NCBI GenBank assembly: GCA_963965975.1
Contig: OZ014420.1
Span: 4,614,001-4,678,000, forward strand
Direction of reading: 5' to 3'
From: Xestospongia bergquistia
Taxonomy: Eukaryota > Porifera > Demospongiae > Haplosclerida > Petrosiidae
DNA length: 64,000 nucleotides
Position 1 is the first letter of the stretch. Each line of letters starts with the position of its first letter. The notes under the pieces were generated by a model, which was not told the DNA's origin, did not search any database, and saw only the letters and a list, made by a program, of their open reading frames with translations. Of the stretch, positions 5,688-56,300 are shown in pieces. Made by a program: the position numbers and the translations under genes.

Positions 5688-5786
5688 ATGTCACAGCAGA
5701 GAGAAGATGGGAACCTGACAGAAGAAGCAATAAACTACATAGAAAACGGAACTTATGGCTCAGATTGTTCTGAAGAAAGCTATTAA
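5688..5786 (+). CDS. Possible short upstream exon or uORF of the Ulp1-like/PHD gene
   Basis: An ATG opens a 32-codon frame (MSQQREDGNLTEEAINYIEN...) ending in TAA at 5784-5786, just before a GTATGT donor-like site at about 5794. It has hydrophilic, protein-like composition and may be part of a 5' exon whose splice boundary I cannot place, or a remnant of the deleted N-terminal region. Confidence 0.25.
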   Translation: MSQQREDGNLTEEAINYIENGTYGSDCSEESY

Positions 5787-5809
5787 TTCTGAAGGTATGT
5801 ACACTTTAC

Positions 5810-6628
5810 ATGCTCTACTTCACTATTAGCTCTTTATCAATAGAATGTGTGGACCTAACAAACAAGGAAGATGTCCCCACAATATATTGGATACAAGAAT
5901 TAACATTGTTTCCATCAGACAAAAATTCATTGATCAATGGTAGGTGGCTGAGTGATGCACTCATCACTGCTGGACAGAAAGTCCTGAAAGATGCCTATCC
6001 ACACATTGGTGGACTTCAACCCACTATATTGGGGATGACATTGGCATTCGAAGTGCAGAGGAAACAATTTGTACAAGTACTTCACATCAATGAAAATCAC
6101 TGGATCACTGCTAGTAATATTGGCTGTCCTGTTGCAACTGTTGATATATTTGACTCTATGCGATGTACTAGACTATCATTTAGAGCTAAGGCACAGATTG
6201 CAGCAATGCTGTTCACAGACCAACCTGAAATAACTGTGCGTTTTCAGCCAGTTCAACTACAACATGGTACAAGTGATTATGGGGTTTTTTCATTGGCTTT
6301 TGCCACATCTCTTTGCGGTGGACAAACCCCAACACAAATAACCTACATTCAACATCAATTGAGGGACCACCTTTGTCACTGTCTTGAAAATAAGACAATT
6401 ACCCCTTTCCCTTGTCAGCAGCGAAAAAAGAAAGCAAAACAATATGTTGCTGGTATAAAATTCAGAGTATACTGCAAGTGTCGTCAACCAGAAGAGGGTA
6501 GAATGATTGAGTGCGAAGACTGCAAAGAATGGTATCATGAAGATTGTGTTGAAGTCCCAAGTGTCATTTGGCAGACTAACAGTCACATATCATGGATATG
6601 TGACTCTTGTATAAAAACTCTTAATTAA
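5810..6628 (+). CDS. Ulp1-like (C48-fold) protein with C-terminal PHD finger, catalytic Cys replaced by Tyr
   Basis: Single open frame of 272 residues inside the transposon. Residues about 45-165 resemble Ulp1/SENP cysteine peptidases: a histidine in ENHWI (H97), an aspartate in VDIFDS (D112), and a Q-H-G-T-S-D-Y-G block at 151-158. The family block is QxGxxDCG, so the nucleophilic cysteine position is Tyr157 (TAT at 6278-6280). Residues 222-267 form a PHD finger with ligands in Cys4-His-Cys3 order (C222, C224, C235, C238, H243, C246, C264, C267) and a preceding basic KKKAK. PHD fingers read histone tails. The product is therefore probably catalytically dead but could bind chromatin or SUMO-like partners. 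The frame is otherwise undamaged. The true 5' end may lie upstream and be spliced. Confidence 0.8.
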   Translation: MLYFTISSLSIECVDLTNKEDVPTIYWIQELTLFPSDKNSLINGRWLSDALITAGQKVLKDAYPHIGGLQPTILGMTLAFEVQRKQFVQVLHINENHWITASNIGCPVATVDIFDSMRCTRLSFRAKAQIAAMLFTDQPEITVRFQPVQLQHGTSDYGVFSLAFATSLCGGQTPTQITYIQHQLRDHLCHCLENKTITPFPCQQRKKKAKQYVAGIKFRVYCKCRQPEEGRMIECEDCKEWYHEDCVEVPSVIWQTNSHISWICDSCIKTLN

Positions 6629-8802: not shown

Positions 8803-9034
8803 ATGATTAATACAAGTCAATGGAGAATTAGTATTGGGTTATGGTATTGTCATCAGATACCATATATTACTAAAAAGGGAACTACTACTGATATGTCAGG
8901 ATGGGTGGAGTCAATATGGTCTGGAGGATCAGGAGATGAGGGTGGTGGTAACCTGGCTTTTTCTTTAGCTATGTTTCTTTTGCTTCTTCTCATTTTATCG
9001 GGTGATATTGAACTAAATCCTGGACCTAAAATAG
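8803..9034 (+). other. 2A-like translational skipping leader exon
   Basis: This first exon ends with LSGDIELNPGP, which fits the 2A consensus D-x-E-x-N-P-G-P preceded by a hydrophobic helix. 2A peptides make the ribosome skip one peptide bond and release the upstream peptide. Here the released 74-residue leader would contain a signal-like hydrophobic stretch, and the NLR would start with proline. When skipping fails, the fused product could instead be secreted or membrane-targeted. Confidence 0.85.
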
Positions 9035-12000
9035 GTTAACATTAAAACATATAACTGATACAGGGATTATGTCTCATTTACTTCAATAGAATTGACGTCA
9101 AGTAATGCTCTAAGACTTCTTGTTAAGAGTGGTTTTGTTGTTAAAGACAAGTGGACTGAACTCACTAGTCTACTAGGTGTCTCACTGGAGGAAAGGAGAA
9201 GACTCAAGAAAATGGCCAGCAGTGATCAAGACTACCACTTTGCTTTAGAGGAAGGTTTACAATGGTGGATTACAAACAGTACTGACCCCTCTTGGGAAGA
9301 ACTCATTTCAGCTGTTGAGAATTGTGGAGATAAGGATATAGCTGTTATAATGAGAAGACAACTAGATATTAAGTATGAAGGTTAGTTATAGGCAATTTAC
9401 ATAATTTGTTAGTACTACATTATAGCTTTGCTCACTCCAAGTGAACTATTTCGTACTCATTCTGCTGATCTTAATGGTATCATTACTCCTATCCTTACTA
9501 GTGTAACTGATGTACTGTATGCTAAAGGACTGATACCATTTGAGATTAAAACTAATATGTTATCAATAACAGGAGAAGATGATCACAAAAAATCTAGTAA
9601 ATTGGTAGGTGTATTACAGAGACAGTTAAAAGCACATAGAGATCCACACCAGTATCTAGTGAATATATGTCATGTATTAAGAAACCAACAACACCAGAGA
9701 CTAAGAGAGATTACTAAGTTTATATTACAACAATTAGGTGAGTCAATTAATATATTCCTTTACCTTACTATGTACCTTACTTCATTAAGGTGAATGTACT
9801 GATGATGATACTCCGCCCACCAGTTCATTAGACCCTGATGTTCAGCAATATTGCAACATCATGGTAGACCAATACAAATACCAACCTATTGTCCCTACAG
9901 ACTGGCCACCACCAGTTGGACAAGATTTCTTTGGAAGATTAGCACTACTACAAACACAAGACAGGCATGCCACTGCTCAAACAATACTACAGAAACAATG
10001 GTGTATGTTAAGAGGACAAGTTGATAAAATACATCAAGTTACTAAAGATAAAAAAATAGATATCCAGGATGTTCTTAAACCATGTGATAGTGGTCAGTCT
10101 CTTAGAGTAGTAGTTGATGGTCCTCCTGGCATTGGTAAGACAACACTTTGTCGTAAACTGTTAAATATGTGGGCTAACGGAAAAATCACACATGGACAAT
10201 ATAACTTGGTACTTTACTGTCCTCTCAGAAATTATAAGTTGGCTCAAGCTAATGAATTAAAACAACTTCTTAAGTACACATATGATTGTAATGAAGTTAC
10301 CACTGTCACTGAATGGCTACAAAAAATACATGGAGAAGGACTACTAATAATCTTTGATGGTTGGGATGAATTAAGTACAAATCTCAGACAATCCTCACTA
10401 GCTGCTAGAATAATTCATAGAGAGATATTAGCCAAATGTTCAGTAATTGTTACCTCTCGTAGCTATGCCTCCTACTCACTTTTAAAAATATCTTCAGTTA
10501 ATAGACATATTGAAGTGTTGGGATTTTCAGAGGAGGAGATCAAAGCAGTAATCAGAGGAACATTAGAAAAGGAACCAATTCTAGCAGAGAAACTCGTTGA
10601 AGATCTTGAAATACGAGGTGATGTTCAGTCATTGTGTTATGTACCACTTGTGTGCTCCATAGTTATCTCAGTTTATCGTGATTCAGATGGACAGTTACCA
10701 ATAACACTAACAGAATTATATGAGAATTTTATCATACAAACTGTCAGAAGACTAGTTGAAATTACAAGAATTAATAATGTAGAACTTGTACAAGTATATA
10801 ACCTTGATGATTTACCATATGTCTTGGATGTACCATTTAAAGAGATCTGTCAGTTTGCCTATCTCAGTTTAAAAGATAACAATCCAAAAATGACATTCTC
10901 TTCAAGTCAACTCCATCAGTCTCTTGGTCAGTCAGTGAATAAAGGTTATCTTGGACTAATGACAACATTTATTGTAGGTATTGAGGAGAGGTATCAATTC
11001 CTTCACCTGAGTATTCAGGAATTTCTAGCAGCATGGTGGATATCTAAGTATGAGAAAACAGAGGAAGTGTTTGCAGAACATTTTTGTAATGATCACTTTA
11101 GAATGTGTCTGAGGTTTGTGGCAGGTCTAACTCATCTTGAACATGAGAGCTATCAACAGTATTTTAACAATGAAATTGACCTACAATGTGAAAAAGGGCC
11201 ATTGTTTGGATTTGAGAAGTGTTACTACTCTTATTTCTGTCAACAGAGAACAGATATCGATGTACACTGCGATTGGTTATCTCCGACAAACCAGATCATT
11301 CTTCTCTTGCAACTCTTATATGAATCACAGAACACCAAATTATGTCAAACATTATCACAATCCATAAAGAACCACTCACTGTGTTTCCGTAGAGGCAACA
11401 TAAGATCATCACTATTTGATATACTATGTGTTGGCTATTTCCTCAATAACTCTAACACAACATGGAATTGTTTGGACTTGTGGTGGTTAAATGGACAGGA
11501 CATACAAGTCCTTTCTAATACACTAAAGAACAACAACAGCCAATGTGTAAAACTAGAGATGATTCTGACATTACAACATTCTAATGTGCCAATTACATGT
11601 AAGTATTTAATGAAATTGTTTAATTCATTAAGGTTGCATAACCTTCGAGAATGTTATATATATATAGAGGCACCATCACAGCTACTACATAGTATTGCTA
11701 TAATATTATCATGTTTGATCAAGCTACAGCAATTGAAGGTGCTATCCTTTAGTATCAGACTACACTGGGAATATCTAATACCTGAGCAATATCTAATACC
11801 TGAGCTAAAGATCTTGTCTGAATTGGAAGAAAATCTATATGTCAACAATACATTATGTGAACTGGAGCTAGATATTTCAAGTGAAGTCAATAATCACTCA
11901 TCCCAATATATTATAACTGGTGGTATAGTCAATAGTGTCATTAAAGGAGTAACTAAAAACAAATCAATTCAAGCATTTTCACTTAATTGGGATAATGATT

Positions 12001-13067
12001 TTAAACCAGGACAGACAATGAATGACGGAGAGGTTTTAAAAACAATTGAACTTTTACTAAGAAATAATCACACATTAAAAGCTCTTAAACTGGCAATAGA
12101 TGATGGCTTTGTATTATCATGTGCACTGGATATAGTAGATGTGAACACACCACTTACTGCACTTGAGATTGGATACCAATATTCAGATCAAGTGGCATCA
12201 TGTCCTCCCGAAAATATAAAAAAATTAGATTGCCTAATATTACATCAGCTAGTACATCAACCATATTCACTGCCTCTTTTATTTGACTCTCATCCAAATC
12301 TTCAACAACTTCAACTATCACTAGACACAAGTGAGAGTGTTATTGAACTACTTACTATTGTACAGAATAATACTACACTTAAGGCTTTAAAAGTGAAAAT
12401 AGTGGGAAGTGACATATATGACAGTATGGGTCCAAGTTTACAAGATATGTTAACTCTAAACCAAACAATAGAATATTTTGAGATTGATACTTCAGCTTTG
12501 CAAGATTGTATTCCCAGTACTCACCTGTTATTTCTAACAACTGGTCTCTCACACAACTCCAGTCTACAAGAGTTGAGAGTACCCATTCCACTGTCAGGTA
12601 CTAACTATGAACAGCTAACAACTTTCTTTAATGTCATCTCTCACAAGAACAACACCACAGAACTAAAAGTGCAGTTTTTACTAGATTATTCATGTGTGAC
12701 CAATGATTGCAGTGATGAAGTAAAAGAAGAAAAAATGACAAAGTTGTTCTATGAACAGGGATTACCTCTTATTACAAACATGTTGAAGTTACACACAACC
12801 ATGAGAATTCTTGGTATATTGTGTAAAAATGTCAGGAAAGAATCTCAACACAACTGGACTGAATTATCACAAAACTTTTGGCAAACTATTTTTCATCATC
12901 CTTTTTTTCAGTATATTGCAGTCAATATAAGTGGGGGAGGAACTGACTCAATGTTAACAGACCTATATCACACTCTGAAATCACAAGAGAAGACATTAAT
13001 AGCCACACATACACAACAACAACCACTGAGACCTCTACCATTAATAGGATGGGGTCACACCATGTAA
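8803..13067 (+). CDS. NLR-type immune receptor: 2A leader - DEATH - CARD-like - NACHT - LRR
   Basis: Four exons, 8803-9034, 9090-9380, 9426-9737 and 9790-13067, join in matching phase 1 and give 1370 codons plus stop. Exon 1 encodes a conserved tryptophan-rich leader, a hydrophobic stretch (residues 51-66) and the 2A motif GDIELNPGP, with separation expected between G74 and P75. Exon 2 is a DEATH domain (WTELTSLLGVS ... PSWEELISAVENCGD). Exon 3 is a second death-fold, CARD-like domain. Exon 4 carries the NACHT ATPase: Walker A GPPGIGKTT (about residues 389-397), Walker B LLIIFDGWDEL (about 463-473), sensor-like VTSRS, and FLHLSIQEFLAAWW, typical of the NLR winged-helix end. Leucine-rich repeats fill the last 600 residues. 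NLRs sense microbial or danger signals in the cytoplasm. No frame damage was seen. Confidence 0.9.
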
Positions 13068-21367: not shown

Positions 21368-22060
21368 ATGTCATCCGTTGGTAAAATTGAATCGTTTGAC
21401 CCTACTCAAGAGACTTTTCCCCGCTATGTGAAGAGAATTAAGAATTTCTTCTCCGCCAACGAGGTTGCTGATGCTAAACAAAAGTATGTATTCTTAAATT
21501 CACTTGGTAGAAAGCACTACAACCTATTGTCGAATCTCTTAAGCCCCGCTGAACCAGAAGACAAATCTCTTGATGAGCTTATCACCATGTTGACCAAGCA
21601 CTTCCAGCCTACTACATCGATCATCGCCGAATGATACTCGTTTCATTGCCGTTGTCAGACCCCTAATGAAAGTATAGCTGACTTTGTTGTTGGTTTAAAG
21701 AAGTCAATTACTTGTTGTCAGTACGAGCCTCATGTGCAAAGTATATTACTCAGAGACTGTTTCGTGTGTGGCTTGGCCCACGAGGCAACTCGAAAATGCT
21801 TGCTCACGGAGGACAATGATCTCACGTTCGATCGAGCTGTGGAATAGTCACTAGTGTGGAGAGAGCATCAGTTCAAGCAAGGCAGATGAAAATGCCGGAC
21901 AGCAAGGTATCAGTGAACCAGATGAAAGGCAAGCAGCAGACTAGTTATTTCGTCAACCCTCCCAAAGTTTGTTACCATTGTGGGGGACCTCATCTAGCTA
22001 CCACGTGTTGTTTTGTTCATGAAACGTGTTGAGCATGTGGCCATATTGCCAGAGTGTGTC
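21368..22060 (+). pseudogene. Gypsy gag, interrupted
   Basis: ATG at 21368 starts a capsid-like sequence (FDPTQETFPRYVKRIKNFF; LLSNLLSPAEP). It meets TGA at 21632 and later a TAG at about 21845, with further stops. Near 21970-22060 two CCHC zinc knuckles are visible (CYHCGGPHLATTC and a second with an in-frame TGA after its first cysteine). Gag forms the particle and binds RNA. The copy cannot make full-length Gag without readthrough. Confidence 0.8.
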
Positions 22061-25000
22061 GAAGCAAATGCTCAGAGCATGGTACAAGCTCTCGAGGATC
22101 CGGTAGCTCAAGAACTGATCCTCATATCCGAACACATCTTCTCGAAGTTTCCAATTCGTCTTCAGATCCATCTCCTATGACAACCAGCAACCCATCTAGT
22201 TCAACAACTACTGCGTCATCTGAAGTATATAGAATGTTTCCAGTGGTCTCCAGATCCAAACCGTTCACCCTGTCCATTATGATTAATAACCATCCACTCC
22301 CTATGGAATTGGATACGGGAGCATCAGTTTCTGTTATTAGTGAGTCTACCTACAATACAGTGTTGAAGGATACAGTACCCTTGGAGTCAACAGATATTAG
22401 CCTACGTACGTATATGGGGGAAGAGTTACCAGTGTTAGGTGTGGCCACAGTTGCTGTCGGCTATGAGTCGCAAACAACGTCTCTTCCATTAGTGGTTGTT
22501 AAAGGTGACGGAGCATCCCTGTTTGGCCCTAATTGGCTAGAACGTATCAAACTGAATTGATCTGTCATTCATAGTGTGTCTAACAATCTGGAGGTGGATG
22601 TCCTGCTCCAGAAACATGAATAGTTATTCCGCGAGGACTTAGGAACTCTCAAGGGTGTGGAAGCTCAAATACATGTTTCACCCAATACACAACCTCGTTA
22701 TTTCAAACCTAGGCCATTGGCATACTCACTAAAAGCCAAAGTGGAGAAGGAGCTTGACCGGTTGCAGGAAGCTGGAGTTATCAGGCCAGTCCAATTTTCA
22801 GACTGGGCAGCTCTGATAGTACCCATTGTGAAAGAGGATGGAAGCATCTGCATCTGTGGTGACTATAAAGTGACAGTCAACACTGTGTCAAAATTGGACA
22901 ATTACCCATTACCGAGAGTGGACGACTTATTTACTGCAATGTCAGGAGGAAAAGTATTTTGAAAACTCGACCTCACACATGCTTACCAGCAGGTGCTGTT
23001 ATCAGAGAGTTCAAAAAAGTATACTACGATAAACACTACCAAAGGTCTTTTTGAATACCAACGACTACTGTTTGGCATATCATCAGCACAAGCTATTTTC
23101 AACGAGCAATGGAGGGCTTATTGCAAGATTTACCTGGTGTCCTAGTTTATTTAGACGACGTGCTGGTGACAGGTCCAAATAAGGAAGAACATCTCAAGAA
23201 CCTTGATAAGGTGATGGATCGCCTAAAATCGGCTGGGGTAACTCTGAAGCAACTTAAGTGTATTTTTCTGGCCCCATCTGCTGAGTACCTGGGACATATA
23301 ATTGATAAGGATGGTCTGCACCCTGCACCTGAAAACGTCCGAGCAATTCAGGATGCCCCCGAACCACGTAACTTGTCAGAACTAAAATCCTTCCTGGGAC
23401 TCATAAAATATTATTGTAAATTCATGTCTAACCTTGCCATGTTTCTTTCTCCCCTCTATAGGTTGATGCAAAAAGATGTTAAATGGTTATGGACAAAAGA
23501 ACACTCTGAAGCATTCAAACAAGCCAAACAGCTATTACAATCATCCACCGTGTTAGTTCATTATGATAGTGAACAAGAACTGATTGTGTCTTGTGATGCA
23601 TCACAATATGGATTGGGTGCCCTTTTAGCCCATAGGATGGACGACAACTCCAAGAAACCCATCACTTTTGCCTCCCGTACTCTCTCTAAAGTGGAGCAGA
23701 AATACTCCCAAATTGAAAAAGAGGGGTTAGCCATAATATTTGCAGTAAAAAATTCCATCAATATTTGTATGGATGGCCCTTCATTATCTATTCAGACCAT
23801 CAGCCCCTGAAATATCTTTTTAATGAATCCAGACAAGTGTCAGTGATGGCTTCCTCAAGAATACAGAGATGGGCATTGATGTTAGGAGCATATCAATATA
23901 GTATTCAACATCGACCTGGGAAAAAGATGGGTAATGCAGATGCCCTAAGTCGGTTACCACTTCCAGAACATCCAAAGGTGTCGGACATTCCACCACCAGG
24001 AGATATCAAGATGTTATTCCAGCACTTTTCAGACACTATAATAACTGCCTCTCATATTCGCAAGTGGACAGAATAAGACCCTACATTATCAAGAATTCAC
24101 CACTACCTCCTTCACAGTTGGCCAAAAACAATTTCTGATTCCTCCTTTCGACCTTACTTCAATCGTCGTGAAGAACTGAGTGCTGTAGATGGCTGTATTC
24201 TCTGGGGGGCTAGAGTTGTGATTCCCCCACCTGGACGCAAGTTAGTATTATCCCAACTTTATGATACTCACCCTGGGATTTGTAAAATGAAGAGTCTTGC
24301 TCGCTTGTATGTCTGGTGGCCAGGGATGGCCACTGATATCATTACCACTGTTCAGCACTGTGACACGTGTCAACAACACAGACCGTCTCCCCAAAGAGCT
24401 CCCCTTCATCCATGGGAATGGCCTTCACGCCCATGGTCCATAGTGCACATTGACAACGCGGGTTCATTTCAAGGGAAGCTTTTCCTAGTACTAGTGGACG
24501 CACATTCCAAGTGGATAGAGGTACATATAGTTCCCTCTACATCAGCTGCATCGACTATTACCAAATTACGACACATCTTCGCTACATTTGGTCTCCTGGA
24601 GCAAATTGTGTCAGATAATGGTTCCGGCTTTACTAGTGTAGAGTTCCAGCAATTTTTAGTGGCCAATGGAATAAAACAAGTCCTCACATCGCCATACCAC
24701 CCATTAACCAATGGACTAGCTGAGAGAGCGGTACAGACATTCAAGAATGCAGTAACAAAGTTAGATGGCCCAATGGAAGTGAGACTCAGTAAGTTCTTAT
24801 TCAAATATCGTATTACCCCTCCGACAACAACAGGACTCTCTCCAGCTCAACTTTTGATGGGGAGGAGGTTGAGGACTCATTTGGATCTACTTCACCCGGA
24901 TACAGCTGCGCGAATGAATGACAAGCAGGAGAAAAGTATTCCAGGAAGAGCGCCAAGACAATTTGAAGTTGGAGACAAGGTATATGCCAAGAATTTCCAT

Positions 25001-25138
25001 GGACCGAAATGGATTACAGGGAGGATAGTTAAAGTTACAGGACCTGTGTCATACCAGATTGAAACAGATGAAGGATTACCCTTACAAAGACATGTAGACC
25101 AGCTGAGAAGACAATATGCAGATGAAACAAGTGAGTGA
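22054..25138 (+). pseudogene. Gypsy pol (protease, RT, RNase H, integrase), interrupted
   Basis: Domains in order: retropepsin with MELDTGASVSVI near 22300-22340; TGA at 22558; reverse transcriptase from about 22660 with PRVDDLF, KLDLTHAYQQV and the catalytic YLDDV box near 23150; RNase H with VSCDASQYGLG near 23590; integrase with a zinc-binding part (HPGICK ... CDTC), and DDE residues in HIDNAG, VSDNGSG and GLAERAV. The last 306 codons (24218-25138) are open. Disruptions include stops at about 22621 and 22960, a frame change near 23100, another near 23765, and TAA at 24074. The order RT-RNase H-integrase is diagnostic of Ty3/Gypsy. Confidence 0.9.
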
Positions 25139-38682: not shown

Positions 38683-38914
38683 ATGATTGATACCAGTCAA
38701 TGGAGAGTTAGTATTTGGTTGTAGTATTGTCATCAGATACCATATCCTACTAAAAGGAACTACTACTGATATGTCAGGATGGGTGGAGTCAATATGGTCT
38801 GGAAGATTAGGAGATGAGGGTGGTCGTAACCTGACCTTCTTTCTAGTCTTGCTTCTCTTACTTCTTCTCACATTATCAGATGATATTGAACTCAACCTAA
38901 AACAGCTATTTACA

Positions 38915-38945
<31 letters not shown>

Positions 38946-41575
38946 ATATATATTTGCTGGTCCTCCTGGTATTGGCAAGACAACACTATGTTGTAAACTA
39001 TTGAATATGTGGGCTGAAGGAGAGCTCATACATAAACATTATAACTTGGTACTTTATTGTCCTCTCAGAAATGACAAGATAGCTTAAATTATTGCTTTAC
39101 AAGAACTATCAAGCACAGTTACAATTGTGATAAAGTTACTATGGTAACTGAATGGCTGCACAAACTACATGGAGGAGGACTATTGATAATTATTTTTGGG
39201 ATGAATTGTTAAGTACAGATCTCAGACAATCTTCATTAGTAGCTAGAATAATTTGTAGAGAGATATTAGCTAAATGTTCAGTCATCATTGCCTCTCATAG
39301 CTATGCCTCCTACTCACTGTTAGAATTATCTTCAGTTAACAGACATGTTGAAATGTTAGGATTTTCAGTTAAGGAGTTTGAGGAAATGGTCAAAGGAACA
39401 CTAGACAAAGAAAAGCATCTAGCTGAAAAACATATCCAAGATCTTGAAATATGAGGTGATGTCCAGTTATTGTGTTAATACCATAGTCTGTTCCATAGTT
39501 ATCTTAGTTGATTGTAAGTCAGAGAGATATTTACCAGCAACACTCATAGAGTTGTATCAGAAGTTTATCCTACAAACTGTCAGATGACATGTCAAAATTA
39601 AATGTACTCACAATATTGAACCTAGGAAATTAAACAGCTTTTGCAATTTACCGTCTTAGATACAAATGTCCAAGATTAAAGTCAGTTTGTTTACCTTAGT
39701 TTAAAAGAAAATAGATTGCTTTTTTCTTCACTCCAACTTTATCATTCTCTTCCTCAGTCAGTGAAAGAAGACTATCTTGCAGGTCTAACTCATCTTGAAC
39801 ATGAGAGCTATCAACCAAATTTTAGAAGAAGACTAAATGTGCAATGTATAAAGACACCATTGCTCGGATTTGAAGCATCTTTTCCTTCTGATTTCAATCA
39901 AAAACGTGTATCTTTATATGGGATTTTATACGGTAAAATTGACATCCTGTTGCTGCATTTATTGTATGAGCCACAGAATGCAAATTTATGTCAAATATTC
40001 TCACAAGTCATGAAGAACCACTCACTATATGTTTCCATGGAGTAAAGCCATCACCATTTGACATTTTGTGTCTTAATTATTTCCTTCATAATTCTACCAC
40101 AACATGGAATTATTTGGACTTGGGAGACTAAACAGACAGTCATTAGAACTTATTGCTAACACATTAAATAAACTGATGAGCAACAATCACTTTATAGGAC
40201 TAGAGATGCAAATATTTGGAACATCAACTCACTATGACCAAATGACTTTAAACATAGCGAGAAATTTATTTCCATTTTCTCTTGCACAATCTTCAAGTAT
40301 GTTATATTGTACTGCACTCAATTAGAGCACAGGATCTACCTGATACTACGTTCATACTACCGCACTTAATAAAACTACAACATCTATATAAAGTTTCTTC
40401 AATTTGATACTTATACATTAATAAATCAGATAATCCTGAAGACTGTAGGGAAGTCGACAAGATGACAATATCTGAATTGGAGGTATGTTTGTGTAACAAT
40501 ACTACACTACATGAATTGATAGTAAAAATTGATTATTCTCCTGAATGTGTACCATCTCTATCTCTTTGTTGATCCAGATATTATAGTCCATAGTTAGGTT
40601 AAGGGAGTAACCAGAAACAAATCTATCCAAACATTTTCACTTATTTGCCATGATATTTTCCCTTATCAACAGATAAATTTGGATAAATCTAACCAATATG
40701 AAAGAATTAAAAGCTTATTGAAAGACAATGACATGTTACAAGCTCTTAAGCTAAACATAAATGATGAGCATGAACTTTTGGATATAGTAGATGTGAACAC
40801 GCCACTTACTGCTCTAGAAATTGGTGTACAACTTGAATCAGTACTTTTTCAATATATTAAAGGATTAAACTGTCTTTTACTACATGATATTCTGTATCCA
40901 CTACCCCTTTTATTCCAATATCATCCCAATTTGGAACACCTTGAACTAAGACTAGACACAGCTGAGAGTGTTAATAAACTATTTACTATTCTACAGAGTA
41001 ATACTACACTTAAGGCTTTGAGAGCGAAAATATCAGAATTTGGAGACATTTTGATCAGTTGTGGTCCTAGTTTACAAAATATGTTAATACTTAACAAAAC
41101 ATTGGAATCTCTTGCAATTAATCCAGATGCTGATAACTTTCTAAATTACCTTTCATTTCCTAACAACTGGTCTCTTGTACAACACCAGTCTACAGGAGTT
41201 GAGTGTACCTATTCTACTACCTGATACCTACTATGAACAATTAACAAAGTTCTTTAGTGTTATCTCTCAAAAGAACAAACTCAATAATGAGAAGGAGAGA
41301 CATCTGTTTATGAACAGGCACTACCTTTTATTACCAAAATTAACGTTAGAGTTGCATACAACTGTGACCCATATTGAGTGTTTTATTGTTGAAATCAGTT
41401 CATCTCAACTAAAACCTATAGCTGGAAGGAATCTACACAACACTTTTGGTGGACTGTGTTCCTTTAATGTTCATTTTGTTATGTTAGGATCTTCAAGTCG
41501 TAAGTTATGGAAGATTCTGTTAGATTGCAGTTAAATACATTGATTGATGCACACAAGCAGCAATAACATCCATCA
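38683..41575 (+). pseudogene. NLR pseudogene related to the 8.8-kb gene
   Basis: The leader exon is recognisable (ATG ATT GAT ACC AGT CAA TGG) but has a TAG at codon 14, a one-base frameshift before GTTTDMSGW, and a 7-bp deletion that removes the end of the 2A motif (GDIELNPGP became DDIELNLK). The DEATH and CARD-like exons are absent; a (TA)n tract at 38914-38953 joins the leader directly to the NACHT Walker A (FAGPPGIGKTT). The rest shows stops (for example after RNDKIA), a missing winged-helix segment near 39780, and LRR pieces at 40679-41224 and 41175-41534 in shifted frames. The upstream 150 bases still match the intact gene's promoter. Confidence 0.9.
38914..38953. repeat. (TA)n tract at deletion junction
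   Basis: An AT dinucleotide run lies exactly where about 0.9 kb (the DEATH, CARD-like and linker regions) is missing relative to the intact NLR gene. Confidence 0.85.
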
Positions 41576-42568: not shown

Positions 42569-44154
42569 ATGATTGACACCTGTCAATGGAGAATTGCTAT
42601 TGGGTTATGGTATTGTCATCAGATACCATATACCACAAAAAAGGGAACTACTATTGATATCTCAGGATGGGTTAAGTCATTATGGTCAGGATATGAGGGT
42701 GGTGGTAACCTAGTTTTGTTTTTCTTACTTCTCATTTTATCAGGTGATATTGAACTCAATCCTGGACCTAAGACAGGTAATCAGTAGATCTATATATAAT
42801 AAAATATGAACCACACTGATATAGATAAATCCACTCCAAGTGAACTATTTCGTACTCATTCTGCTGACCTTAGTGGTATCATTACTCCAATCCTTACCAG
42901 TGTAACGAATGTATTATATGCTAAAGAACTAATACCATTTGAGGTTAAAACTAATATATTGTCAATAACAGGAGAAGATGATCTTAAAAAGTCTAGTAAG
43001 TTAGTAGGTGTGCTACAGAGACAGCTACAAGCACATAAAGATCCACACCAGTATCTAGTGAATATTTGTCATGTATTAAGAAATGAGCTCAAGCAACATG
43101 AAAGAATAAAAGATGTTGTAACCTTGATATTACAGCAATTAGGTGAGTAAATATTAATCAGAAAAGGCTATTCTATTAGGTAACCAAATTTTCATTTTAT
43201 ATTGGTTACCCACATTGATTCCTTTTTTTTACTGGCACAATTTATATAAGGCAATTTTATGATGTGGTATATTTTCAAGTGCAATAAAATAACTTAAATT
43301 GTTAGCTAATGTATATAATATAATATGTCTCATATGTTTGTATAAACTCACTATAGTGGATTAGCTGTTCCTTATTCAAAACCATTGTTACAACTAAGGG
43401 ACTTAAATGTAATTTACTGTCATCACAATTATTGAAAAGTTTTATGAAACAGATACTCCTTGGCAAGACTGAGCAAGTATCTTATAATTTTGCCTTTTTC
43501 CACCTTAAGATATTTTTTAAGATTATAATCTATTTCTATAATCTTGCTTTAACATTAATTTTAGCTAAGTGCAAATATCACCAGCACTACAAGGGTTGTA
43601 CTCTTTGTTTCGTATGGATGCATGTATTTTTGCATAATGTTGTCCAATTATCAACTTTGCATTATGTATGTGTGACATCATGCATTGCAATGGAGTTATC
43701 TGTACACATGAACTTACATTGAAGTATCTACTTCATACATTTGTTGGGTTTATATCTTGCAAATAATCTTACTTAAAATAGAACTTTATTATAATAATGA
43801 TATATAGTGATTTATTTGTGCAATATTAAGCTTCTACCATAATTTTTATTTACACATTAATTTCAGAAGAGGAACACATCACTCCAGCATGTCAAATATT
43901 GCATAATCATTTTGATATGGTAAGACATAATAGAGAGTATGTATACTAGACCATAGTTTACTCTGTAGAATGTGGCTGCTATTGAAAAAGAACAAACAGT
44001 CACAGTGAAAATAAAGGAGAATGAACTGGAGTCTGCTAAGCAAAAGGGTAAAATGGTCACACACAATTTGTATAGAGATAAGCTATGTAGTTCACAATGG
44101 AAGACATATAGTAATGTCATCACAGCTGTCCTAGAATCATTGATAACATCATAG
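42569..44154 (+). CDS. 2A leader - CARD-like small protein without NACHT
   Basis: Four exons, 42569-42776, 42825-43142, 43867-43919 and 43969-44154, sum to exactly 255 codons including the TAG, with consistent phases (1, 1, 0). Exon 1 is a close relative of the NLR leader exon and keeps an intact 2A motif (ILSGDIELNPGP). Exon 2 matches the CARD-like exon 3 of the intact NLR (LFRTHSADLSGIITPIL ... KSSKLVGVLQRQLQAHKDP). The DEATH exon is absent. Instead of NACHT, two short exons give a lysine/glutamate-rich end with CSSQWKTYSNVITAVL. It could act as a decoy or adaptor that binds the NLR's CARD-like domain (inferred). A GGTAAA donor-like site inside exon 4 leaves room for other splice forms, including joining to the next gene. 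Confidence 0.75.
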
Positions 44155-44387
44155 TAATTGATGTCCAGGTCAATGGAAGTTGACAAATATTTTCATGCTA
44201 TTAACAATTAACTGCTAAAACCATATGGCAAGCATTAGAACATTGATTATGCTTCAAGGCTTTTAGTACTTTTTTTCTGTGACTGCTTTGATAAAATCTA
44301 CAACTTTTATAAACCTGTAGTGTTTTTTGTAAAGAGTATTCTAAATACAATAAGACATTTTTATATAACACAAAATCATTGTTTTAA

Positions 44388-47309
44388 ATGGATCCTATCA
44401 CTACAAGTCTTCATATTTTTACTTGTGTTCCTGAAAAATTAGATGGAGCATCAAAGATGGCTTCCAGTGAATTCACTACTGAATGGAATACGTTAGTTCC
44501 ACAGCAACAATGTTTTGTAATTACAAGTGAAACAACTGAAACTGAATCAATCAGTCATCAAGGTACGTTGTCCCTCATATTTGACACAAATAATGACACA
44601 TTAAAATATTAATTTTATTATGTAGATAAAGTAAAACCTGTTAGTTCTATTAACAAATTCCCAACACAAGAACTTGCGTCAAAAGCAAGACACCTCAAAA
44701 TGAAATTTTATGACCTTTTATCAGCTATAGAGATATCCAGCAAACAAAAAAATGTTGAAACATTTAAATTCAACGTTCAAGTTTTATTGACTGATGCTCA
44801 AGAATCTCCTCAATTAACTACTACAATCTATTATCTTAATGAAGTAAAACAGCTAGAAACCTCAAGTGATGTACTCCTTTTTTTGAAGATGCATGGTTTT
44901 ATTGGTTATCAGAACTATGAATTACTTGAATACATAGTTGGGTGTTTGTTAAAAGATGATTTACAGGTTGTGACTCAAATGGATGAGTACATTGAGAAAT
45001 ATGAGGATTTTGAACAGCATTTGTCTCTAAATGAACTAGAAGAAATTAGTCGCGAAGAAGATCTTCAACCCAGAGCACCATCTGGCTTTCCTAAGTTTGC
45101 TTTAAGAGCAAATGGTGATACCAATGTTCATCAATGGAAGAAGACATATTCAGAGAAATTTCCATGGTCTAATCGTACTTTACTGAAGGAACTTAATCCT
45201 TGTAGTATTGTTATGACATATGTAGCTCTACCATGTGTAGTGTCTAACATACTTAGGGACCTCACTGATCCAGTTATTTTGAGTGAATTAGAGTCAATAG
45301 GAGTAACCGTTGTCCTCTTACCACAATGTAGTGATACATCTGAGGTATTTGCATTCACTGATAAGTCAATGTGTCATATCATTGTGTAGTTGTCATTATC
45401 AAGTTTTGTAGAGAGTGAACATGTACAAGATAACATGAAGCAAAGTGGTTGGTCATTTTGTTCCATACTCTTATTATCTTTTATTTTAGTACAAATGATA
45501 TGTGATCTTGAAGAACCCTTGTTAGATCCTATATCTACCCAAGAACCCTTGTTAGATTCTGTAGCAATCAAAGAGCCCTTGTTAGATCCTGTATCTACCC
45601 AAGACGCTACTATGGTATGTTATTATGTTAATGATTAAGATAATTATCATATTATATCATGATAGTCCTCACAAGACAACATAGAAAGTAACACATTAGT
45701 TCAAGACAATGGTAAAGTCAATTAATACATTCAACACTTAATATATAATCTTTATATTACAGGTCAACAACTAGTACTACATAGTATACAATATGACAAC
45801 ACATTGGTATGTATAATAAGCAAAATGTATCTTATAATTATATTAGTGATATATTATATAGGATGAACCTTTATTAACTGCAGTAAGAAAGAACAATATA
45901 TCTGAAGTGAACAAATTATTAGAAAGTTATGCTAATCCAAATTGTTTTGAGAAAGTTAGTAATTTAAGAGTTTTCAATGTTTAAACCATATCATTGTTGC
46001 TTTGTTTTGTATGTTATAACTACTTTACGTATCATGATATAGCTAATGATAAAAATATGTGTGGCTTAAACTAAGGACAAATAAAGAAAGAATAATTATT
46101 AATATGATATGTAATATATTTATAGCAGTACAGAGTATTAAATTATAACTTAATATCTATTTTTGTTTATAGGATGGATATAATGCTCCCCTCCACATTG
46201 CTGTAGACAATGGAAATAATGATATTGTTAAAGCTCTATTATCAATGGGAGCTAATATTAATATGACAACAAAGGTAAGGTAACAAAATTATAACTGTAT
46301 AAACAGTTGTCCTAAGGTTGTTTAATACACTATTTTGGTTATTGAAATCATAACTTCAATAATATTGAGTGGAGGGTTTGGGTCAGGTGCTCAAGGCTTA
46401 AGCATCAAGCTAGCTTAAACACTTTTTGAAGTACTTCAAGTACTTTACTAAAATGGGCTTAGTGCTTGTGCTTAAGGTATAATTTAAAGTAATTTTAAAG
46501 CACTTCCAAATATAATTTATTATATTTAAACGTGTCATGTCTATACTTCGACTGTCACTTATGTCAATTATGTAATTATGTAATAGTTGTAGCAATGTTA
46601 CTTGCAATATGCCCTGATTTTTTGAGTCTAACATTAGAAACCCAGAGTCAAATTGAAAGGTGTATTTGCTTTAATCATTCATGCACAATGTCAGCACACC
46701 TGCAATGTGCATCAGGGGTTAAAATATGTGGATTAATTTTATTGTTTACTTTGTAAAGTTGTGTACTATACAATAGAATTATGCATGTACATTCCACATA
46801 TGTATGACCTAATACAACCTTAGTGCTACCTGACATATAAAGCTTACTATGTGAAACGATTATTATATCTTGTTATTATAGGGATATTGGAAAGAAACTC
46901 CGCTTCAGATTGCTATTAGAAAACAAGATAAGATTATTGTTCAATCTCTGTTATTAATGAAAGCTGATCCTAATATTAATGAATCAGTAAACAACCAACT
47001 ATTTGTGTTAATATAATATGCATTGTATGTTGAATTGTTTATAGATTGAAGATAAACCTCCCCTCTTGGATGTTGTTGAAAGTGAAAAAATTGACATTAT
47101 TGAAGTTTTACTATCAGCAGGAGCTAATCCTAATATTACTTCACGTGTAAGGAACTATAAAAATAAAAGAGTATAGAGTATTATTTCATTTAAACTGATG
47201 TAAAGTGTATATTGAAGTCATTTTAAATATAGCTAACTACAGACCATTAATAATTGGTAATGTTTTGCACATAGATGATTCTATAATTGATTTGAGTTAT
47301 GTGTTGTGT

Positions 47310-50300: not shown

Positions 50301-53300
50301 TAACCCACCAGCCCTACATGAAGTATAACAGAAATATATTTATCAGACAGACATTAGTACTGCCTATGTAGGGATGGAACAATGTTTTATCCTCTTCATA
50401 TTATTATTATTCTTTCTGTTACGTAACAATAACTATAAAAGTAGAAGTCTTATAGAGATTATTTTTACACAGAAAGGCAAGATTTCACATGAGATATAGA
50501 CTTTTACAAGTCTTATTTTGAGCAGCTTTAACAATGAAAGTAGTGGTTTGTGTAGGGCTTGGAAATAGCCTCTGTGACAGATGCCAATTCATAAAGAAAA
50601 ACAGAGGTCATTAATTGTATAGGACCAATATTCTAATATTCTGTTCCATCACAAGGCCTGTTCTACCTGGTATCAACTTGCATTCTTTGTCAGTAACCTT
50701 TGTTCCTGTTTTCTAAGGAATCAGATTTGTCTTGTCTTCTAGCAATTTAAGAACAGATATCATCACAGTACATTTACCAATTGAATTAGCTATTTCTGGC
50801 CAATTATATACACATATAATATAACTCATTCTTTCTGATGCATGCATGATGTATTGTTGTTAACCATTTTAAATTATAGCAATACCCTGTTGTATAGTAT
50901 ATCCTGACTAATCTCATTCAACATGTAATATTATAGAAAACACATTGTGGACATATTTTAACTAATTTATAATTAAAATAAAAGTAACACAAACAAGTAA
51001 GTAAAAATTTCTGAAAATTCATTAAATGTAGAGATGATAAAACATTCAAACATGCCCAAAGTAGGAATGGCAGTATGAACATCAATGCATGGCAGCCACA
51101 TGCATTTGTATGGCAAAAATTGTCACTAAGAAGTCAAAAGTAAAAGACACATTGCAACAAAGCATTATAACCATGATATTGTGGCTACCATGTAGGGATG
51201 TCCATACTACCATTCCTATTTTAGGCTTGTTTTGAGATGTTTTACCACCATCCATATTTAATGAATTTTTTAATTTTATTTATTTGCAACACTTCTAGTT
51301 TATTACTGCCTACAGGTGGGGTTTCTTTGTAGTGTAAAATTCTTTATTAAAGTTACAATGCACATATAGCACAATTTTCATTGTAAATTTCTAAGCAGAA
51401 ATGATACCTTTACAAATTAATTCATAGTCTATTAATTGACATTCTAGAGTGGGAGAACTGTTCTTCATAGTGCTGCTGAGGGAGGAAATGTTGATATCAT
51501 TAAGACATTGTTAGCCAAAGGTTATGATCCTAACATTAAGGATAAGGTGATTTATATCTAATACTAGATTATAATGATAACATCTATGTTGTTAACAGGA
51601 TGGTTATACTGCTCTTCATGTTGTTACTACATTTAATTCCACTGTTGCTGTGCAAGCATTGTTAGACGGAGGAGCTTGTCCTAACATTGTCTCAAATGTA
51701 AGCAATTATAAAATGTTACTTATTATATGTAATATTACAATGTAACCTATAGGATGGGACTCCACTTTGTTTAGCTATTATATCTAGTAAAAATGATATT
51801 GTTTATACTCTGTTATTTAATGGAGCTGATCCAAATGTTACATTTGGTCAGGTAAGTATCATTCATATATTATGTACTAGAGAATGTATTATGTTACCAT
51901 TGAAATAAATAGATTACCAACTGTTTAGTTTTAAACACATCTTAAATCAACACCATGTTCCAAGAACAGGATGTGTTTACATCTGCTATCCCGTTGAACA
52001 GTATTAGCCCAGAGCTATAAATAATGCATTGTGGTTGTTCTGTCATAATGACCTAACATAGTGAAATTTGGTAAGACATATTTGCTTTGCTCGGACGTGC
52101 ATATTTCTGTTAATTCAAACCACACAAATCATAGCACACTCATAATGATAAAAGTAATAATAGTGAAACAAATGAAAGACTTAGAAGTCATGGTAATTGT
52201 CCAGCCAACAATCCCAGTCCAACAAATCCACTTGACTAGAGTCACTTGAATCGGAGCCATCCATGTCACAACTGGTGGTAGTAGCAGCTGAAACATGTGT
52301 TTCATTCTTTCTGTACTTCTTCCTCTCCTGATTCGGACGCTGTGTTTTTGCCTTCCACCAAATTTCTATACTGTCATCAGGATTGAAGTCTTCCACACTC
52401 ACTTTTTCAACATTGATGACTAGCAAATCATCAAGAAGTTCATTGCTCATTGATGACCGTCTGTCCTGTTTGATGTTTTTCATTGTGGAAAAAACTGTCT
52501 CAAGTTTTACATTTGAAACTGGAAGACTAAAGAGGAGCTGAGCAAGTTTCAAGGCATTCACCCAATCTGAGGCATCTGGAGAATGAAACAGATTCCACCA
52601 TACTGCCTGGTAGCTTGTACTTGATAGAAAAATGAATTGTGTTGCATACACAAGCATATCACAACAGCAACTTTGGCAACTACTACTCCTGATGCTTCAA
52701 GTGGAACCTTGAACTTGGAAATCAAGCGATCAATGGCTTGGACATAGCCTTCACCTTCCTCATCTGCTAGTTTCTGCCAGCCTTGCGTAGCAAGAAAAAC
52801 GATTACATCTCTAACAAATTCTACATCTGTCCACTCTAGTCGAGATCTAAGGCAGGTGGTTACTGCAGTGCAGTATTGTTCACAGTGTGATGAATAATGC
52901 TGCTGAGCTGCATCAAATCTTGCTAGGGCTGTCTGCTGGTAGAGATGGTTACCATCTTCCTGAGTAATGCTTTTGAGCACAGATGAGTAAGTAGGCCACT
53001 GGTCAAAGGACTTTGAGCAGAGCTTCTGCAATTCCTGCATTGTACGAAGAAGGCTACTAAATCCTCACAGTATATCCAAGCTATCCTGTTGGAGAACTTT
53101 ACTGAGAACAGCACAGGGAGACAGAAGATCACTGAAAAAAGCACAATCCAGAATGTACTTAGCATCAGACCACTTTGTACTGTACCCACGAAGCTTGGCT
53201 CGATTCACATATTTGATAGATATGTCCTCAGATAAAGCTTTTAGATGACTGGAATAGGCACCAAATTTCGAGATCACTCGCTTCATAGCTGACAACTATG

Positions 53301-56300
53301 CGATACCCAGCATGAACCACATGCCCTGACTGGCTTTATCCCAGCATCATCAAACTCAATAAACTGCTTAAGATCATTGATGATTTCCTCCAATTCCCGA
53401 CACTTTTTGGGGGATTTTTCATATATATAGTATAGATGGAGAACCATATCATCTATTAGGGAAAAAGAAGTGGGTTTTAAAGCATCCTTCATGGCCAACT
53501 CTACACGATGAGCTAAGCACCAGCTCCAGTGTAACCAAGGAGCTTCTTTTTCAACTAGACCTTTAAGCCCGGCTGCAGCAATATTTGCTGATGCACCGTC
53601 AGTTCCAATGCCTACCAGCATTTTACACTCATTGCCTCGATACCGACAATGCGCAGGCTATTGTCTAAGCAATCAAAGAGGCCTTTCCCATCGACACTCT
53701 TAGGTCTAGAAACACAGAGGTAAGACATGTGCATGTGAACCAGTTGATCATCAGTATCAACACCACACCATAAAACCAGAAAAATTTCATCATCAATATT
53801 GCCAGAGTCAGTGGGGCCATCCATAAGGATAGAAAAATATTGAGCTTTATGCAATACTTCCTTTAAATGCTTCCTCTTAGACTCTGCAATGAAGTGACAA
53901 AAGGTCTTGCCAGCATTTTCATTACGGTAGGCGGTACCAACCACAACACCATGCTTAGATTTCAGGTTACAAAGAGCAGGGTAGTTACCGAAGGATATCT
54001 GTTGAACAGCAACAAAATGAGCAATATCAAACTTTACCCTGAGGGTTTTTTTGTCAGTTTCAGACATTTGGTTAAGTACATTTGGTTATGCACTTGCATC
54101 AAGACTGCTAGCTTGAGCCTGGTTCTTTCTTAGAATTTGCATTGCATGTGCATGCTGATCAGAACGAGCATGGTCCCTGATGTTACTGTTTCTAACAGAA
54201 TCTGCACCCACAATCCATTTATCATTAAAATTCTTTCTGCTTTCAATACTTGAACGATACTGGATACATACCTTGCACTTGAGCTGTTCCACAGTTTTCC
54301 TAGCCCCTGTCCCAATAGTTTCACACTCCAACCAAGAGAGAGTTCTGCATTCCTGATCCAACTCAGTTTTCCATTTTTGATAAGTAGCAAGGCTGACCTT
54401 CCTCCGCTTGATATTATAACTCTCGCTGCTCGGAGCACTGTCTGAGCTAACTCGCTTCATTTCCTAGGTACAAAAATGGTAAGCTTTTCAGCATAGAACA
54501 GTATCACTCCCTGAGTCAGTCAGCTCCACACCACACAGCTTAGTGTCGACTCAGCAAAAATACAATCACACCAAAATGCGCATGCGTAATAATGTGCAGT
54601 GTCAGGCCATTATGGCCGACCAAGTTGCTCTTCGCGCGGCCACATACACGTTTTGTTTGGAAAATGACCGATGGCCGACTGTAATTTATAGCTCTGTTAG
54701 CCATACTGTTAAGTCGTCTGTTAGTAGTGTATTTTCTTGCTACTTTAGTCTTAGAAGTCTCGGGATTTGAAAAGCAATTGTACAGCACTGCTAAGGTTGA
54801 GTTATGTCAGTTGCTTATACATAATAAGGTCTACTCTAATACCTATAAGTAAATAAAACATTTATTAAAATAATAAAGTAAATGTAGGAATTCTTTGTAT
54901 TGGACTGTACTAACTATCCCTATATTTACTTCATTTTTATTAGAAAATGTTTTTTATTTACTTGTTAGCATAAATTTTAAATGCAATTTTTGATAGCTAA
55001 TAGAGAAAGCTGTAACATGCTAGGAAGTAATGAATTTCTATGTTTAACCAGCTCACAAAAGCATTCTTATATATTGTGATGGGGAAATAATTATTACTAA
55101 TAATTAAATTGATAAAGGAAAATTAGCTGGGAACTTGAAATTATTCCATCATCAGTTCTGGACAGCAAAGAGGTCCTCCGGAATACAGTAAGAAAATCAT
55201 TATAATACTTAAATCTGTTAGATTCTGTGATGATCGATAACACAATACTAATTCTACTACTACTAACAAGGGACAAAATCAGTACAGCTTGATAAATAAA
55301 CCAAAATCCTTTTTCATAAAAGAGAAGAAGCAGGAAAATAGCCAGAAGCCAAAACATTTCGAAAAAATGGAAGATGATGTAGGGATGACAATGCCAAAAG
55401 GAAAGAAACAAGGTAGGAATGAACACATAAATCTATCTTGAAATCCCTACATAAGTAGCAAGGAAAGCTTTACTAGTACAATTTCTATATAAACACTATA
55501 TACTCTTCACTTCAATATACAGAAGACTATAATAATTTGATACCAAACTTATCATGTTATACTGACTGACTGCTTACATATGGATTTTAATATAGATTTT
55601 TGTCCATCTCTACCTTGTTTTTTCTTTCCTTTTTGGCATTGTCATCCCTAATTATCTTTCTTTTTTCAAAATGTTTGTTGTTACTTGCTAACAACTACTC
55701 AACTATATAATAAGCACTTAATACGTATGTGGACACCTAATGTTATTGTCACATTACTTTCAGTTTAATGGAAACCTGTTTTTTTCTATGTTATTGAAGT
55801 CTGTTGACGTTGTCACTTGTATGCTATTTGAGAAAGTGCAGAAATCATACTAAAATTGGTTGAATATTAAATATATGACAGTATAAATTAAAGAAGCTGT
55901 AGTTAAAGTACAGAAAACATTGTATTATGTAAATAATATCTCAATTTCACAGGACAATAAAACTCCACTTCATCATGCTGCTAAACAAGGTGACAGTGAT
56001 ATAGTGCAAATACTACTGGATAAAGGAGCTAAAGTCAATGTTGTTGATAATGTAAGTCTCTTAAATTATTGTAACATTTTTTTACATAATAATTATAAGT
56101 TATTGCAGATTTTTAGATGACTATTGAAATTAACCTTCTCACTAACTATTGATGGCTTTGGTACACATAGTAACAATAATCAAGTGTGTATGGTACAACA
56201 GCTTAGTAAATAATTCATACCTACATTAGAGATTCTCAGCTCCACTTTTAGCCAAAAACTAGTACTTATTTCTTGCAACAATTTTAGAGTGGTGTACCAT

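Follow-up and report, generated by a model that had tools for sequence, protein, structure and literature searches.

Exon 1 of a Death-NACHT receptor gene in the sponge Xestospongia bergquistia encodes an N-terminal leader that runs through a hydrophobic segment into a canonical 2A octapeptide, and at least 136 leaders of this type with an intact octapeptide are present in this one animal genome, where about half of the NACHT places listed have one upstream. The explanation that best accounts for these observations as a whole, and in which we have good confidence, is that exon 1 encodes a 2A (StopGo) leader, translated into two products by ribosome skipping and spread through the genome as a module. 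If skipping is true, each such gene would give two proteins, possibly with two addresses.

A receptor gene that begins with a probable 2A leader

The gene lies in a stretch of 64,000 nucleotides (the window; all positions below without a contig name refer to it). Joining positions 8803-9034, 9090-9380, 9426-9737 and 9790-13067 and translating the spliced exons gives 1370 amino acids in one frame. The three introns, of 55, 45 and 52 bases, are all GT-AG, and exon lengths place each junction in phase 1. The parts of the gene, and two related leaders further along the window, are as follows.

8803 to 9034, plus strand: exon 1, the leader (conserved N-terminal motif at 8803 to 8868, variable linker, hydrophobic segment, 2A)
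8956 to 9003, plus strand: hydrophobic segment AFSLAMFLLLLLILSG, which contains LLILSG, the L-rich hexapeptide that precedes the octapeptide (position by counting)
9004 to 9027, plus strand: 2A octapeptide DIELNPG/P, with the predicted skip between Gly (codon end 9024) and Pro (9025 to 9027)
9035 to 9089, plus strand: intron 1, 55 bases, GTTAAC...TTCAATAG, phase 1
9090 to 9380, plus strand: exon 2, Death-like domain (Pfam PF00531 and 99 related places in the genome)
9426 to 9737, plus strand: exon 3, possibly a second death-fold (CARD-like) domain (CARD at E 0.003 in one of five relatives)
9790 to 13067, plus strand: exon 4, NACHT and a long C-terminal part (Pfam NACHT at E 1.4e-23; LRR by eye only)
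38753 to 38896, plus strand: third leader, a remnant with a broken octapeptide, preceding a NACHT fragment at 38950 to 39078
42569 to 42778, plus strand: a second such leader with its 2A at 42746; an exon-3-type open frame comes next, at 42803 to 43147

Exon 1 contains no stop and translates to MINTSQWRISIGLWYCHQIPYITKKGTTTDMSGWVESIWSGGSGDEGGGNLAFSLAMFLLLLLILSGDIELNPGPKI; its 77 open codons and one further base end in LSGDIELNPGPKI. Read to the Pro of the octapeptide, the exon gives 75 residues, with a hydrophobic run followed by LSG-DIELNPGP at its end, and its junction with the Death-like exon is in frame. A sequence-only reading of this DNA had described exon 1 as ending in a hydrophobic stretch followed by GDIELNPGP, and the stop-free translation of 8803-9034 bears this out; as that reading also had it, the predicted skip falls after residue 74, the Gly. 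The hydrophobic stretch itself is there, at a length of 15 rather than 16 residues when counted as the run that lacks D, E, K, R, N, Q, H and P. As the leaders have the first ATG in common, a start at the second Met is rated the less likely choice, which is a weak argument in a set of 38 leaders chosen with a motif that demanded Met or Val at that place.

The receptor behind the leader looks like an NLR, as previously proposed. Exon 2 matches PF00531 at E 1.3e-4 with 22.5 bits, marginally below the Pfam cut-off of 22.6, and the Death exon of another locus (L043) matches at E 5.3e-8. The NACHT domain of exon 4 scores far higher (PF05729, 83.9 bits against a cut-off of 26.7). Among solved proteins compared by sequence, the nearest are NLRs, with NLRP3 first (best E 6.8e-14). 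A CARD identity for exon 3 is weakly suggested by its relatives, and the comparison of this exon by sequence with solved structures gave no relative under E 0.9. Pfam LRR models are absent among the exon 4 matches at E 0.1, and the LxxLxL-type repeats of its C-terminal part were noticed by eye only.

The junction at 9034/9090, on which the earlier proposal depended, has comparative support from the rest of the genome. In all 19 leader-Death pairs, a phase-1 donor lies 31 bases past the start of the octapeptide and, with an AG acceptor immediately ahead of the Death exon, would produce an in-frame join. These 19 are only the pairs found by motif, and they are paralogues rather than independent events.

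The octapeptide and the leader family across the genome

A degenerate DNA pattern for the octapeptide has 162 matches in the 146.5 Mb genome, as against none for the same pattern read backwards, a number well beyond chance. Listed by type, the octapeptides comprise 95 DIE and 66 DVE forms, 161 together; flanking sequence was read for 52 of the sites. Not all of them belong to leaders. The DNA of one octapeptide recurs eleven times, in one case with a base changed, at C4:8604524-8907047 (G000) and C1:2165171, and the one read of these (L010) is a short frame with SN-DIELNPGP that is not a receptor leader. At four further loci (L017, L018, L019, L023) the octapeptide lies immediately 5' of a zinc-finger-like frame, possibly of retroelement proteins. 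L023, the one scanned, is a PHD finger by Pfam, and the QWRxxIG head typical of the leaders is absent from the upstream frames of the three readable loci among these four.

Using the leader of one locus (L039) as a protein query, we obtained at least 150 matches at E 0.01, counting fragments, a lower bound since scoring covered 150 of 195 candidates. The earlier observation holds, and its scope, a single gene, was too narrow, as the canonical octapeptide D(V/I)ExNPGP is kept in at least 136 leaders (136 of the 150 matches listed). The query itself contains the octapeptide, so that weak matches without the motif may be missed; among the 84 matches of at least 82 bits, where this bias is least, two do not have the canonical form.

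Twelve of the 14 non-canonical matches were read, as 11 short genome stretches and one place in the window. Two of them (L061, L062) carry GVELNPGP, a form inside the expanded motif of PMC12846837. Their 2A activity is doubtful, because G at the first octapeptide place occurs with other upstream contexts in that paper. Another two (L058, L066) have an altered octapeptide in a frame still open through the motif, and the other eight read are truncated, shifted or stopped. The remaining two have four stops each in the match table, so that a usable octapeptide is missing in 12 of the 150 matches listed, 10 of which were read.

Placement ahead of receptors is strand-specific. Considering at least 95 NACHT places (scoring covered 103 of 156 candidates), 48 of the 95 listed are preceded on their own strand by a 2A no more than 6 kb away, and the opposite-strand control gave two; 200 random placements, for which the sizes of four contigs were guessed, gave a mean of 0.4 such places and a maximum of 3. 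Similarly, a 2A lies within 1.5 kb of 75 of the 99 places like the window's Death exon, with none in the opposite-strand control. A contrast group exists in the same genome: for 29 NACHT places at C2:8826416-9146653 (G000), the 6 kb upstream hold no canonical 2A.

The 2A could be imagined as a mobile-element relic, inserted upstream and outside the receptor mRNA. Sequences of the 2A type are known in non-LTR retrotransposons (PMC4981915), and other octapeptides in this genome stand within a PHD-finger frame, or within a short one whose octapeptide DNA is recurrent. Against this stand the strand-specific placement ahead of receptors, the phase-1 junctions to Death exons, in frame in every one of the 19 pairs, and the signs of selection in dN/dS borne by the leader protein (below). 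Given the placement and the junctions in particular, we have lowered this explanation to highly improbable.

The leader is not confined to NLRs

Of the 136 intact leaders listed, 88 have no NACHT among the listed places within 6 kb, although some NACHT domains were possibly missed. On contig C14, five or more ankyrin-type motifs lie between the leader and the next 2A in 16 of 19 loci; on the opposite strand none of the 19 reaches this number (one locus has four motifs), and single motifs occur upstream in two. Pfam found long ankyrin arrays in all four loci scanned (L039, L044, L046, L048), and genome-wide at least 19 of these 88 leaders have an ankyrin match within 9 kb. With these ankyrin frames and the many leaders listed without a nearby NACHT, we rejected the idea of the leader as an NLR-only feature. 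The leader, Death exon and ankyrin exons of such a locus would presumably belong to one transcript.

Other arrangements also occur. L043 carries a pair of Death-type exons and lacks ankyrin motifs; the ZU5 domain read there by eye was dropped, as Pfam gave no match at E 0.001. On C3 (L033) the exon after the leader is death-like by eye, with no Pfam match at E 0.001, and on C4 (L069) an exon resembling it, again by eye, comes after the leader. A variant leader (VWRARIGLF ... DVEVNPGP) lies 5' of a tetratricopeptide-repeat (TPR) open frame at L011. The leader, often together with a Death exon, would be a module that spread across more than one receptor family.

Leader anatomy and selection

We aligned 38 distinct leaders, leaving out duplicates and sites without a loose N-terminal motif (Met or Val start required). 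Their common layout is a head of approximately MIDxxQWRxxIGLWYCHxIPY, a variable linker, the hydrophobic run and the 2A. The hexapeptide is LLILSG in 25 of the 38; in one leader it includes a Lys (LLKLSG). In the ten residues beyond the hexapeptide, only two of 380 are charged, and the maximal 15-residue Kyte-Doolittle mean in the window's leader, over the uncharged run preceding SG, is 3.01. No Pfam family matched the leader.

The ratio dN/dS, taken over 600 leader pairs that differ at 10% of bases or more and are not independent of one another, is about 0.09 for the octapeptide, 0.26 for the hydrophobic segment, 0.32 for the N-terminal head and 0.72 for the linker. The head and octapeptide values are biased, the leaders having been chosen by those motifs, while linker and hydrophobic run were not chosen for.

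Predicted ribosome skipping and its products

Ribosome skipping at the 2A of exon 1 is very likely, judging from its likeness to tested 2A elements. DIELNPGP at 9004-9027 falls within the octapeptide motif (D/G/C/N)(V/I)ExNPGP, and the upstream LLILSG, compared by eye, falls in the LLLLSG-like class of viral StopGo elements described by Li et al. 2026 (PMC12846837), with which the sponge element shares the canonical octapeptide, D at p12, G at p11 and an L-rich hexapeptide. By analogy, the nascent chain would stall with LLILSGDIELNPG inside the exit tunnel, the Gly-Pro bond would mostly remain unmade, and translation would resume from the Pro. The main products would be a leader of 74 residues, with the hydrophobic segment and DIELNPG at its C-terminus, and a 1296-residue Death-NACHT receptor with Pro first, staying cytosolic. 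By our own alignment with the F2A sequence, the leader presumably also has the tunnel-contacting residues L7, L9, D12, E14 and N16. In alanine mutants of F2A, changing D12 or N16 abolished activity, and L7A and L9A left 34% and 82%, respectively (PMC12846837).

A minority of ribosomes that did not skip would make a receptor still attached to the hydrophobic segment, which could be directed to the ER membrane or into the secretory pathway. Such predicted dual targeting from one mRNA is plausible. An ordinary signal peptide is less obvious here than in the sea urchin, as the hydrophobic run does not start until about residue 51. Because this start comes some 50 residues in, after the head, we would expect the unskipped form to show a signal-anchor-like effect, or no effect, no less readily than a cleaved signal; the skipped form would be expected to leave a small tail-anchored peptide. 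Against secretory targeting, a NACHT receptor would have no obvious job within the secretory route.

It is quite possible, without being probable, that only the skipping matters, the hydrophobic stretch being the upstream part that a 2A requires, with neither dual targeting nor any function of the leader; the leader would then be a by-product, kept for setting the receptor level or the Pro N-terminus. L-rich upstream residues are themselves needed for 2A (PMC4981915, PMC12846837), the FMDV 2A needs more than 30 residues for full activity (PMC12846837), and four assayed upstream classes, one of them L-rich, skip at approximately 93 to nearly 100% (PMC12846837), which would leave little unskipped product. 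However, the head stands about 50 residues ahead of the 2A and yet varies less than the linker between them (0.32 versus 0.72, the first value biased), and the almost charge-free hydrophobic run reaches about 10 residues past the hexapeptide.

A slightly less probable alternative, in our view rather unlikely, is that the released leader of 74 residues is a product in its own right: a tail-anchored membrane peptide with the head QWRxxIGLWYC, made 1:1 with the receptor and perhaps acting as partner, sensor or decoy. Skipping would indeed put the hydrophobic segment at the C-terminus with a tail of seven residues, and the head is common to the 38 aligned leaders, from NACHT and ankyrin-repeat loci alike. 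On the other hand, the leader lacks a Pfam family match, recent duplication can mimic conservation, and the sequences were selected by a loose head motif.

Returning to the 2A leader as a whole, a fuller form of the proposal, which we hold only tentatively, would combine these elements: a leader cassette of head, membrane segment and 2A, spread over at least two receptor-like classes (NACHT and ankyrin), from which each translation would give a cytosolic receptor and a tail-anchored 74-residue peptide whose head has a role of its own, with a small unskipped fraction at membranes.

Relation to known 2A systems

The principle of an N-terminal 2A leader is already known from sea-urchin NLRs (Roulston et al. 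2016, PMC4981915), and the sequence-only reading had mentioned 2A-like sequences at the N-termini of NLR-type proteins in some marine invertebrates. In the sea urchin, 85 of 241 NLRs have a 2A-like sequence, and 14 NCBI entries have an N-terminal one of 26 amino acids; skipping by a leader was estimated to be about 80% efficient in vitro, and a leader kept from skipping by a mutation directed the reporter to the Golgi and the medium (PMC4981915). In the joined sponge frame, as in SpNLR2A, a 2A stands N-terminal to Death-like and NACHT domains. Both systems have D(V/I)ExNPGP N-terminally in receptors of the Death-NACHT-LRR kind, the sponge ones having a borderline Death match and LRR seen by eye only, and in many copies per genome; in both a tract of long hydrophobic side chains precedes the 2A (PMC4981915). 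Unlike the compact sea-urchin leader of about 26 residues (PMC4981915), the sponge leader has 74 residues up to the Gly, a conserved head and an exon of its own, and it is also found where ankyrin repeats rather than NACHT come next.

The viral StopGo elements lie inside polyproteins, whereas the element described here is N-terminal in cellular genes (PMC12846837). The same paper (PNAS 2026) calls the cellular use of 2A recoding rare and restates the sea-urchin principle. Among demosponges, Dysidea avara has an enlarged NACHT-LRR repertoire in which some genes carry Death domains and some lie in clusters, and transmembrane segments are reported for some of its NLRs; a term search of the main text of that study gave no occurrence of 2A-like, NPGP or signal peptide (PMC12909245). 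The term "2a-like" in PMC5890393 is part of an unrelated gene name.

In the open-licence literature searched, we recognised no account of 2A leaders for sponge NLRs or for Death/ankyrin genes. The survey of Rao et al. 2025 (Cell Rep 44, 115822), reportedly a systematic one of eukaryotic and viral 2A to go by its title, may include such leaders. Relative to the open-licence papers, the spread of the cassette, its reach beyond NLRs and the long leader with a conserved N-terminus look new. In other animals, some NLRs annotated as membrane-bound might owe this label to a leader that is lost during translation. With so many natural variants of a single element, skip efficiency and leader function can be put to the test.

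Other features in the window

At the second leader locus (42569-45389) there is no room for a Death exon between the leader and the exon-3-type frame, and a 258-amino-acid open frame downstream (44613-45389) has no Pfam match. The third leader heads a broken NLR-like copy (38753-41534) whose open frames resemble the C-terminal part of the receptor by eye; a scan of one of them, 40598-41221, gave no Pfam match. Mobile elements are also present. Positions 22033-25138 hold pieces of an LTR element that we call Gypsy-like, a naming of our own, with aspartyl protease, reverse transcriptase/RNase H and integrase by Pfam. A hAT-type transposase lies at 52181-54463, with its C-terminal dimerisation region found by Pfam within 52184-52696. 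Finally, an open frame at 5774-6628 has a C-terminal PHD finger in the scan and an N-terminal part that is protease-like by eye.
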